Below are positions 28,274-62,717 of a DNA stretch of 64,000 nt, in pieces. The notes below the pieces were generated by a model. That model was not told where the DNA came from. It searched no databases and saw only the letters and a program-made list of their open reading frames with translations. Origin of the DNA: Pegea sp. RAD2-039 (Eukaryota > Chordata > Thaliacea > Salpida > Salpidae); the NCBI GenBank assembly GCA_034620365.1, contig JAQGEQ010000061.1, forward strand, positions 62,001 through 126,000. The letters run 5' to 3'. Numbering within the stretch: position 1 is the stretch's first letter; each line of letters begins with the position of its first letter. The position numbers and the translations under genes are program-made.

Positions 28274-29646
28274 ATGGCATTGATTGAGGATTATATAAAA
28301 ATTGAAAAAATTGGGGAAGGTAAAGTTATTAAATTCTATAAATATATCTTGTGTATCTTCATTTATAAAGCTTAACCATTAATTTAGATAGCTAAATACT
28401 TTCAAAGTTTTTTGTATTTGCTTTCATAGTTTTTTTTCTTCCTATTTTAGGTACATATGGTGTTGTTTATAAAGGCCGCCATAAACTTTCTGATAATTTA
28501 GTTGCCTTGAAGAAGATTCGTTTAGAAAATGAAGAAGAAGGTGTCCCTAGCACTGCTATTCGAGAAATTTCAATTTTAAAAGAACTGAAACATCCAAATA
28601 TTGTTGGGTAATTTTATAAGTTGTCTTTTTGATTTTAAACTAATTTGAAATTGTTGTTTTGTAGCTTAGATGATGTTATCCTTTCTGATAAAAGTCTCTA
28701 TTTAGTTTTTGAGTTTCTTCAAGAAGATTTAAAAAAGCATATTGATAATTATGAGGTTGGAACTTTTATGGAACCAAAGAAAGTTAAAGTAAAACTTCTA
28801 ATTTGCTAATTCAATTACTGATGTAAATTAACATTTTTAAAATGTTTTTATAAATCCTACTGCACATATTTTTGTTAGGTGAAAGTTTACAAGTTGTTTA
28901 TTTCTTTCAGTCTTTTACTTATCAAATATTGCAAGCAATCACTTTCTGTCACTGCCGAAGAATTCTTCATCGCGATCTAAAACCACAAAATCTCTTGATT
29001 AGTTCTAATGGCCAAGTAGTAAAAGTGGCCGATTTTGGATTAGCGCGAGCGTTTGGTATCCCAGTTCGAGTTTACACTCATGAAGTGGTCACTTTGTGGT
29101 ACCGAGCACCTGAAGTACTACTTGGTTCCACTAAATACTCAACACCAGTTGATGTTTGGAGTATTGGTACCATTTTGGCTGAAATGGCGAATCGTAGAGC
29201 TCTTTTTCATGGAGATTCGGAAATTGATCAAATTTTCCGCATATTCAGGTACGTCGTCATCTCCTAGTTTATGATGACGTCACAAGTGCGTTTTCTGCAG
29301 AATTCTGGGTACTCCAAACGATAAGGACTGGCCAGGGGTCAGTGCATTACGTGATTACAAGACTACTTTCCCAAAATGGGCAGCTGAAGATATGAGCAAG
29401 TTTGTGACTAATTTGGATCAAAGTGGAATTGATTTGTTATCAGTAAGTGCCCCAAATGCCCCAATTTCATCTACAATCACGTAACTTCTCGAACAGAAAT
29501 GTCTCGTCTACAATCCATCTCATCGTATCTCTACTAAGCAAGCGCTTGATCATCCTTTCTTCGATGACGTCGACAAATCTTCGCTTCCAGCAGCTAACGT
29601 GCAGATGTTTGCACCTAAAGTTCCCACTTTTGATTCTAATATGTAA
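28274..29646 (+). CDS. CDK1: cyclin-dependent kinase 1 (Cdc2)
   Basis: Mitotic Ser/Thr kinase that partners cyclins A and B. Six exons: 28274-28319, 28451-28607, 28665-28788, 28911-29248, 29301-29442, 29497-29646. The product begins [20 protein letters not shown], with the inhibitory Thr-Tyr pair inside the Gly loop. [20 protein letters not shown] carries the catalytic Lys and the PSTAIRE helix. [10 protein letters not shown] and [20 protein letters not shown] (DFG and T-loop with the CDK1-type IPxRVYTHEV) follow, then [15 protein letters not shown], and [15 protein letters not shown]. It ends in a CDK1-like short tail ([11 protein letters not shown]). GRHK, PSTAIRE and AFGIP favour CDK1 over CDK2/3. 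An ATTTTTCAG acceptor ends at 28250, 23 nt before the ATG. The 52-nt fourth intron carries TGACGTCA, and GC and CpG rise from this exon onward. Confidence 0.93.
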
Positions 29647-30624
29647 GATTCGATTTCAACGTTGGCGCCCCACCAATTTTTTCATTTTTATCATTTCATT
29701 GAAATGGTTAGCCGCTTTATCGTCGTGGCAACACAGTTTCGTTGAATTTTTCATAGTTTTTTTTTTAGCGCGATTTGTTCGTGAATTCTTTTGCTGATTA
29801 GTAAAGTTGTAATCAAATTTTCAACTTTCTTTAATATATTTCTTTCGACAAATATCGGTTGTCATAACAACCTAAAAGTCTTCGTGTCGCACTCTCAGGT
29901 GCTGACGTCATAGATCATCGTTACTATTCAATAGCCACTTGGCCACGTGACTTCGCGTCTTAGTGAGCGCTGTGTGATTCTTAAAGTTGTAGGATTCTTA
30001 TCCATCTCATTTTATCTTCTTACGTACAATTTTTAATTTTACTGATTCAAATGATTCGGTAACAACAACTTTTCCAAAATCATCTTTTTAACTTCGGAGT
30101 TTTCTAACTGATAAAAGTGAAGCAAGAAATACCTCAACAATGAAAACGCGTCGCGCAAGCGCCTTGTGATGATGATGATGTAAATTACATTCAGATGGTT
30201 ATATTGTGTGAGAAATAAATCAAATTGAAACAACGAGTAGTTACGTGTTTGATGACGTCATTAGATCGAGACAGTGAACACAAGGAATTTTTTTGAAAAT
30301 TTATTTGCAAATTCATGCGATTGAATTGATTACACAAAACAAATCAATTTCGGAAATACAAAAAAATAACATTTACATAAATTGGAGCCAGTCACGTTGT
30401 GACGCGCGAAGTGTGCACATGACGTCACTGGCGATCAGAATTCCTACTATACAAAAAAGGAAGAGCAAATGGCCCAACATCTTCCCGTCTTCCTACGTCA
30501 CGTGAATCTCTCTTCTGTCACCCACAGACACTCCGAATAGCGACATTGTCACCATGGCAACCATCAGTAGTCATACAAATGCTGCGAGCATTTGGTTGAC
30601 ATCACTATAGCAACAGGATTAGCA
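29647..30624. other. convergent 3' flanks of CDK1 and the Pax-like gene
   Basis: No protein gene supported. CpG-bearing, with TGACGTCA near 29,903, 30,250 and 30,419, CACGTGAC near 29,943, GTCACGTGAATC near 30,497 and the RFX-type GTCACCATGGCAACC near 30,548. These probably lie in 3' UTR and spacer DNA. Confidence 0.5.
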
Positions 30625-60318: not shown

Positions 60319-60363
60319 TCTTTAATTGACTTTCTTAACTTTTTTTTTTGATGATGACGTCAT
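58357..60363. promoter_or_regulatory. CRE cluster in Tie-like gene introns
   Basis: About 12 TGACGTCA octamers. They lie in the introns near 58,357; 58,870 and 58,903 (same intron); 59,078; 59,249; 59,428 and 59,453 (same intron, the second forming part of the 3' splice site GTGACGTCACAG); and 59,758. Others lie in exons near 59,342 and 59,848 and in the 3' flank near 60,356. The intron at 59,908 instead has the X-box-like GGTTACTAGGCAACC. Confidence 0.8.
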
Positions 60364-62717
60364 CAAATTGATGTTTTGTTTTTGAAGTTTTATAAAAATG
60401 AAAACTTTTTTGAAATCTTTGAATAATTTTAATAAAAGTGAATTTTGATCAAATTTTTTGTGAGATTTTTTTCAAGGAATCTGATTTCAATAATTTTCTT
60501 TTATTAGTTTTTTTGATACTTTCAATATTTATCAGACTTCAGCACCTAAATAAATTTCACAATTTGTAAAATATGCAAATAATACATCACCAAAGTGGCA
60601 GAAGTTAGAGAATGGAATCAGCTGATCTCAGACACGCTTGTGACTCGAAAACTTATCCGGATGCACTCAGCTGTTTCAACAAAGATCGTGATCTGATCTT
60701 CTACGAATAACTTCCTTATTTATGTTGAAATATTTTCTCAATGATAATTTATGTAAAAATCAAGAAAGGTTTGATTAGAAGTTTACTTTGGTTTGCAACA
60801 AACTGATGATTAAACTGAAAAGTTCCCTTTAAATTCTCATTATTTTCAACTTTGACAACTTCATCAAAACTTCTTCTCTTTTTAACTTCCTCAATCTTTC
60901 CGGATCTTTTCTGTTATAAATTTAAATTAACTTTATTCCTGACTTTCTGACTCACATGAAGAGTCCTTCTCTTTTTTCGATCTGATGCAAAAATGGGACC
61001 TTTTGAGAGTAATTCTAGATAGTTGGGACTTTTGTGTTGAGATCTTCAAGATCAGTCTACAAAACTCAATAAAATTGATGATGATTGAAAGAATATTTCA
61101 GAAAATATTTAAATCAGAGCAATAAAGGTGATAAAAATCAAATCTTCAGAAGAACTTTGAGGTGTGGAAGACACGGTTGTTTGTAAACTTAATAGGTTCA
61201 AGTTAGTTTATCAAATGATTTTTACTTCAAGTAAGATTTGAACAGAGATTGCTGGATAACCACAAACCTCAGCAGGTAAATTAAAAGATCAAAATAATTA
61301 AGTTTCGCTTTTGATCTTTTTCTGGCTTTTAGTTAAAAAGAAAAAGATAATTAAAAAGAGGAACAAGAGAGTGTTGAGAAGTTGATTTAAATATAAGTGA
61401 AAATGTAAATTTCAATATATATTGAAGATATTTGTGGTTTTATTTTAAATATATTCAAATTTAAAAGTTGAAGTTATTATTGTAGACCTAAAAGGAAATT
61501 TGGAAAATAGTTTCAACTTTTGCTGTTATTTAAGTCTCAAAGAAAATTGAATAATTTTTCTTACTATAGAAATTACAATTCTACTTTTATCAGCTAAGTA
61601 AGTAAATGTTTTTTCACTAAAGTATTACCTAACTTGCCAAAAAAAGAAGTTGGCTTCACACCAAACGTTGGATTATAACTTTTTAAGGAGATTATCTTCA
61701 AATATCTTTTTATAGAAATGAGACAAGCATGTATTTTGATGTTTTCAAAGCTTTAGGTTTTTAACACTTTCAAAATAATTACAATTTTTCGGTTTATAAA
61801 AAAAATTATCTTTTAATTAAAATTAATGGATTAAAACACTATTCACAAATAAATCAGATTCTTTCACAAAAATCTTGCTGAGATGGAGCTTGTGAGAAGA
61901 TTATCTTCTCTTTAAATTATCTGTCAGACTTCTAACAAATAATTAATGAGATTTAAGGTCTTAAAGTTTCAACGAATCAATAAGATGCTCGTGAACTCTT
62001 ACATCAACTGAATCAATCATCGGATGACAACGGGATGAAGTCTTTGATCTATTATGCCAACTCCGCAGATTCGAATCTTTATAAGACTCAAAAGTTAATA
62101 AAAGGATAAATTTCGCGCTAGGAGTCAAGTACGCAGTAAACGAGTTCATGAGAGTTTTTGCAACTGTCAATAAGCTACTTGTAAGATTCTGTTTAAGATT
62201 CTGTAGAATTTAGAGATTCTTGTTTAAACTTGTTGATGATATTTAAGTAGATTTGAAGATCAATCAATAAATTCAAATGTTGACTCATTGAAACAAATTG
62301 AACAATTTTTGAACAACTTAAATACTTCACAAAAGAAACGTCATCCTATTTTTCAATCGATTTCACACCAAACAATAAACCATCACAAATAACAGGATGT
62401 TCACAAACAGAAAATTTACAAAAAATTAATAAATGAAAAACCAATTTTCTATAATTTTCTTTATTTATGATAATTATTACACACTCTAAATATTTCAATT
62501 CTTTAATTTTCTGTCTAAAATAATAAAAAAATTGATAAGCTGTATTCTAGATACTTGAAAGATATACAAGAAAAAAATATTAAATGTTGATAACAAAATA
62601 TTTTGTGATAATTTGAAAAGATTCACTTGTCGAAGGTAAAATGATTATTTAATATTTTAATGAGAATTTTAGACAAATAGTGATAGAGATTGAATAGAAG
62701 TTCATATTCGAGTTGAT
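60319..62717. other. AT-rich intergenic DNA
   Basis: No confident gene. A 31-residue plus-strand frame at 60615-60710 (MESADLRHACDSKTYPDALS, ending DRDLIFYE) has coding-like composition but no known relative that I recognise. A 69-codon minus-strand frame at 61961-62170 is likewise unassigned. The right end is filamin 3' flank. Confidence 0.4.

Follow-up and report, generated by a model that had tools for sequence, protein, structure and literature searches.

Iterated words of this strength have been described from bacteria, and the closest example is the cyanobacterial highly iterated palindrome HIP1, for which one survey (PMC4390886) gives, one group apart, 300-2700 copies per Mb and observed/expected ratios of 55-228 in most cyanobacteria. 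The same source argues for a word-manufacturing process in the case of HIP1, and presents the origin of such words in bacteria as still debated (PMC4390886). Two further systems share the octamer considered here, TGACGTCA. The first is the canonical cyclic AMP response element (CRE), the site of CREB/ATF-type bZIP proteins, which is reported as over-represented only closely upstream of the transcription start in vertebrates, with no such bias reported for Ciona, fly and worm (PMC1796609). The second, M26, is a meiotic hotspot in fission yeast; it consists of the same word, in the form ATGACGTCAT when tested, and an ATF/CREB-type reader is reported for it (PMC3534124). Here, we describe the enrichment of TGACGTCA in the salp Pegea sp. 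RAD2-039, both in a 64-kb window (GCA_034620365.1, contig JAQGEQ010000061.1, positions 62,001 to 126,000 of the forward strand; window positions are counted from its first letter) and in the whole assembly of 105.7 Mb and 387 contigs, in which the window lies on contig C259.

The exact word occurs 27,792 times in the assembly, tandem arrays included, vs 969 times for the word read backwards, which amounts to 263 per Mb. The best-known transcription-factor site is thus found at about 29 times its control in an animal genome, and at about 14 times expectation in predicted coding sequence when amino acids and codon usage are held fixed. These figures suggest that TGACGTCA is in some way favoured or generated across the genome, coding sequence included. 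Such a genome would allow population and binding data to separate selection for binding from biased word creation. No earlier report of TGACGTCA over-representation was found among the best-ranked titles and abstract openings of one openly licensed library, which is weak evidence of novelty. HIP1 and its alternates resemble this case in that a single exact palindromic octamer reaches a very high observed/expected ratio genome-wide (PMC4390886); the difference is that we are dealing with an animal genome and a known transcription-factor site, and that the copies are clustered in domains.

In the window (GC 32.6%), for which an initial annotation had estimated about 75-80 copies by eye, the count is 77, making TGACGTCA its most frequent octamer. 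The dense ranges proposed at that time (29.2-34.3, 41.1-42.6, 48.1-50.1, 52.9-56.3 and 58.3-60.4 kb) contain 72 of the 77, with the counts per range listed in Table 1, and the remaining five lie at 165, 250, 15720, 21570 and 39917; the claim that the word is nearly absent from 258-29,200 is likewise correct, with two copies there (15720 and 21570). Copies are spaced at one per 0.8 kb in the window vs one per 3.8 kb in the genome. The initial annotation had further spoken of a genome-scale sequence system rather than ordinary promoters: the genome scale, the clustering and the extension beyond promoters have all stood, whereas the unity of the sites as one functional system remains conjectural.

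Base composition or codon usage alone can be dismissed almost with certainty as the cause of the excess. Sequence within 500 bp of sites is indeed richer in GC than sequence elsewhere (37.0% vs 27.8%, with the word masked), but an order-2 Markov model of these dense stretches expects 0.8 copies, as opposed to the 142 observed in 61.7 kb (about 2,300 per Mb). In the 287-kb sample that holds these 142 copies, the median among 96 palindromes of equal base make-up is 2; among the 24 that have a central CG the other 23 range from 0 to 24, with TCACGTGA at 24 and the other 22 at 0-5. The enrichment claimed from the window therefore holds against unrelated CpG palindromes, and it also holds genome-wide, where an order-2 model of 18 sampled loci, scaled to the assembly, expects about 400 copies vs the 27,792 found. 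Synonymous-codon shuffles, described below, also give far fewer coding sites and complete the rejection. Palindromes in general are barely enriched in the sample, where other 8-bp palindromes lacking GACGTC reach only 1.1-1.3 times expectation. Order-5 and order-6 Markov models, applied with the two arrays of locus L024 included, rank TGACGTCA 43rd and 375th by index, and these ranks are uninformative because such models contain subwords of TGACGTCA itself.

The 18 sampled loci, each of up to 10 kb and placed at round coordinates of our choice, comprise 172.8 kb with arrays masked and hold 22 copies vs 0.65 expected from the order-2 model. Of 20 stretches chosen in this way, one does not exist and one is truncated. 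This density scales to about 13,500 copies, so that the remaining genomic sites must be located in denser, window-like regions and in tandem arrays. Eight 3-kb loci centred on sites (L001-L008) were left out of every sample, and L032-L035 and later loci out of the word counts; L009 stands outside the 18 loci since its sites were already known, and the two L024 arrays were masked in all sample counts except the order-5 and order-6 ranking. The assembly seems to keep uncollapsed haplotypes, as L048 (C37:186651-190650) and L049 (C21:1488307-1492306) form a haplotig pair with 99.1% identity over 4 kb, and some loci may consequently be counted twice; no TGACGTCA is present in the 4 kb compared between this pair.

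As the initial annotation had proposed, sites are present in introns, exons and other DNA alike. Genes were modelled with a finder of our own making, part of the predicted exons being compared with Pfam, and model borders can be wrong, as illustrated by the site at 59253, which we assign by eye to an intron. With these models, 112 of the 142 sites are located within predicted genes, 65 in exons (0.98 per kb) and 47 in introns (2.05 per kb), and 30 lie outside (0.15 per kb). Coding presence was compared with 200 synonymous-codon shuffles that hold the protein and its codon usage fixed, and it exceeds what amino acids and codon usage predict. The nine dense genes, which carry 87 sites in 26.8 kb, have 48 coding copies vs 3.3 after shuffling (maximum 9), and the 53 other genes have 18 vs 1.3 (maximum 4), an excess of about 14-fold that is alike in both groups (these 66 copies are counted in spliced sequence, the 65 above by position). 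When only the 18 loci are considered, their 37 predicted genes have 5 vs 0.45. Both stop-free frames are used by the coding sites in six gene regions, 21 being read as T-S and 16 as D-V.

The distribution within transcribed regions bears on whether the word could act as an RNA-level element in splicing, export or stability, a possibility that we regard as very improbable. Among introns of at most 70 bp, the word is present in 27 of the 72 that belong to the nine predicted genes of highest site density vs 7 of the 133 that belong to the others, and with respect to predicted transcription GTGACGTCAT exceeds ATGACGTCAC on the sense strand of introns by 15 to 5, both of which would fit a role in RNA. 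The intron background is T-rich, however, the corresponding figures are 14 to 13 in exons and 29 to 18 in exons and introns together (p = 0.14), the core of the word is palindromic, and the 30 sites outside predicted genes have to be accounted for as well. A sense-strand orientation had looked strong in four genes, and the 29 to 18 over all predicted genes speaks neither for nor against a role in RNA.

Sites are clustered: the variance/mean ratio is 6.6 in the window and 3.1-3.9 for the 100 sites in the initial 1.56 Mb of contig C1. The clusters follow GC to some extent: with the word removed, the introns of dense genes have a GC content of 38.8% vs 28.7%, and site density correlates with GC over 62 predicted genes (Spearman 0.55). 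GC alone is insufficient to explain density, since five predicted genes at GC 0.42-0.46 have zero sites. This link to GC is one of several observations that fit the main rival explanation, in which sequence-directed repair or gene-conversion bias, perhaps linked to recombination in GC-richer domains, makes and restores TGACGTCA without any regulatory role. Such an animal counterpart of HIP, in which a process linked to repair, conversion or replication would write the exact octamer into introns and synonymous positions alike, perhaps guided by an ATF/CREB-type protein, accounts equally well for the indifference of the sites to gene features, and is in line with the equal coding excess in dense and other genes and with the densities given above, set beside the 300-2700 per Mb of HIP1. 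It is also in line with the two minisatellites of L024, the one sampled locus of the 18 that holds 37 copies in or beside arrays (3849-4648, 40 bp x 20.0, and 5724-6259, 35 bp x 15.3, with the core GTGACGTCATCAC in both); there the octamer is changed at 0 of 280 positions vs 35 of 1,045 elsewhere, although array copies are not independent of one another. We nevertheless consider this explanation unlikely, if still the one to be taken most seriously after our own. To our knowledge, no such word-making process is known in animals, and transcription-factor-like words unrelated to TGACGTCA are enriched too. The identity of the word with M26 does link it to recombination; yet conversion should erode hotspot words, which is the hotspot paradox (named in PMC3534124), whereas tens of thousands of copies have accumulated here.

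The sites are not the debris of one mobile element. Flank similarity among the 142 sites is no higher than in controls (38 similar pairs vs 21-53 in eight control sets), no shared repeat surrounds them, and a dispersed repeat was rejected as their source, with the L024 arrays as the exception. A broader version, in which many sites were made by a past burst of any kind (small repeats or seeding tandem arrays among them) and now decay passively, can be judged from one-mismatch relatives of the word, for which we reason that passive steady decay should leave about 1.1 excess relics per exact site. In the whole sample there are 132 such words vs 61.6 expected, beside 142 exact ones, an excess of 0.50 per exact site; within 500 bp of sites there are 64 vs 22.1 expected, with TTACGTCA the most enriched of them (16 vs 1.5). 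Genome-wide, 37,125 one-mismatch words (64,917 minus 27,792) stand against about 17,500 expected from the order-2 model or 27,699 from the reversed-word control, an excess of 0.34-0.71. These ratios are below 1.1 and thus favour maintenance of TGACGTCA. Deviations in the whole sample are unevenly distributed over the word (27 vs 5.2 at T1/A8, 38 vs 14.0 at G2/C7 and 60 vs 35.5 at C4/G5), and words altered at A3/T6 are no more frequent than expected (7 vs 6.9), which again speaks against passive decay; unevenness across positions is also described for cyanobacterial HIP (PMC4390886). A burst has in its favour that arrays containing the word do exist, and that the one-mismatch excess in the 18 loci taken alone (53 vs 28.5) matches their 22 exact sites, at a ratio of about 1.1. 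The similarity of the flanks does not exceed control, and a burst would not by itself explain sites at synonymous positions in coding exons; we rate a burst as improbable.

The shape of the word points to a protein reader. RTGACGTCAY is found 23,214 times vs 228 genome-wide, a purine on the 5' side and a pyrimidine on the 3' side flanking 84% of sites, with G and T preferred farther out, and purine/pyrimidine flanks match ATF/CREB-type sites. Spaced half-sites are not enriched in the sample, where TGAC-N(1-5)-GTCA occurs 1-3 times per spacing vs 142 times unspaced. In the genome, bZIP matches above the cut-off number at least 12; one of these bZIPs reads, in our judgement, as CREB, and exons that appear to be CREB-type are present. 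Other words also stand out: the second ACGT-core palindrome TCACGTGA, which ranks next to TGACGTCA in the sample, occurs 4,614 times vs 237 reversed genome-wide, ACCGGAAGT occurs 763 vs 268 times genome-wide, and in the sample ATGCAAAT reaches 33 vs 4 and GTTRCYATGG 13 vs 0. We take these sample-enriched words to include octamer- and RFX-type sites.

Because the word and its flanks fit ATF/CREB-type bZIP proteins, because other transcription-factor-like words are enriched and because bZIP and CREB-type genes are present, we favour the view that dense binding sites inside genes are under selection. More precisely, our leading explanation, which we put forward tentatively, is that TGACGTCA is favoured as a word at the DNA level, most likely through binding of a putative ATF/CREB-type bZIP dimer. 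In this model, the dimer would bind TGACGTCA and the genome would thereby favour the word. Site clusters run through gene bodies in GC-richer domains, occupying short introns, synonymous exon positions and flanking DNA, and it is whole gene bodies, not single promoter elements, that would offer many binding sites at once, for regulation or for the state of chromatin. We infer a bZIP protein as the reader, selection rather than a word-making process as the keeper of the word, and any effect on expression. The octamer and its flanks are those of the canonical CRE, with the difference that here the word is spread over introns and exons and is in excess genome-wide.

Several observations weigh against selection for binding. 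Sites in coding exons, and dozens of sites in a single gene, are unlike known enhancers and promoters. The 21 motif strings tried in the sample were picked by us, and among them the AP-1 word TGASTCA (26 vs 32), TTACGTAA (1 vs 7), TTCTAGAA (15 vs 31) and Myb- and ARE-type words are not enriched there, and NRF1 and HNF4 words have zero matches. Nor do the one-mismatch counts from the 18 loci support maintenance, the relics there being as numerous as under passive decay. Finally, a preference for developmental over housekeeping genes, which the sample had suggested after the fact and which we then fixed as a prediction, was not seen in a small prospective test: 500-bp stretches of homeobox genes (five) and of proteasome genes (five, coding only) gave 0 vs 0 sites, and the idea was dropped because about 8 sites are expected in 2.5 kb at dense-gene density.

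The features of the window are collected in Table 1. The 50-bp intron within the paired box is one intron that can be placed firmly, and it carries two sites. Paralogous Pax exons on contig C103 have no TGACGTCA in the 3 kb examined.

Table 1. Dense domains, selected sites and related features of the window, with positions in window coordinates
Feature	Position	Strand	Remarks
Dense domain 1	29275..34235		24 TGACGTCA, mostly in a gene of Pax type (- strand; counts, gene model)
Paired box of the Pax-type gene	exons 34240-34437 and 34001-34189	-	PF00292, model positions 3-56 and 56-118
50-bp intron within the paired box	34190..34239	-	Sites at 34204 and 34228; split at model position 56
Dense domain 2	41102..42596		8 sites in and near a predicted - strand gene (39833-41922)
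Dense domain 3	48115..50062		9 sites; gene of macoilin type, + strand (Macoilin, PF09726)
Dense domain 4	52889..56314		20 sites, 16 within a predicted gene of WD40 type (53874-55810, - strand; PF00400)
Coding site, WD40-type gene	55254..55261	-	Reads G-D-V-I
Coding site, WD40-type gene	55484..55491	-	Reads V-T-S-S
GGTTGCTAAGCAACC	55689-55703	-	Presumably an RFX X-box-like palindrome; in a 54-bp intron predicted for the WD40-type gene
Dense domain 5	58355..60362		11 sites, 10 in a predicted EGF-like-repeat gene (58052-60136, +); EGF-like by eye, Pfam score below cut-off
Predicted-exon site, EGF-like gene	59343..59350	+	C-D-V-I-D in the open frame 59053-59445
TCACGTGA, 12 copies	16860, 21388, 26920, 30498, 39833, 39977, 41060, 41877, 48555, 48720, 54950, 55230
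One TCACGTGA copy	41877..41884

In its first 29 kb, which are poor in the CRE, the window carries two ubiquitin-conjugating-enzyme genes and genes for an AAA ATPase, an acyl transferase, AAR2 and, at the end of this part, a protein kinase, a gene content that had made us suspect the division into housekeeping and developmental genes considered above. A reverse-transcriptase-like open reading frame, recognized by eye, lies at 12506-12880, and the repeat beside it (12506-14012 together with the frame) has pieces of 82-87% identity in L010, L019 and L024; no TGACGTCA is present at 12506-14012. Locus L030 (C259:126001-136000) contains a filamin gene for which about 39 introns are predicted; of its 15 TGACGTCA, 10 are in predicted exons.

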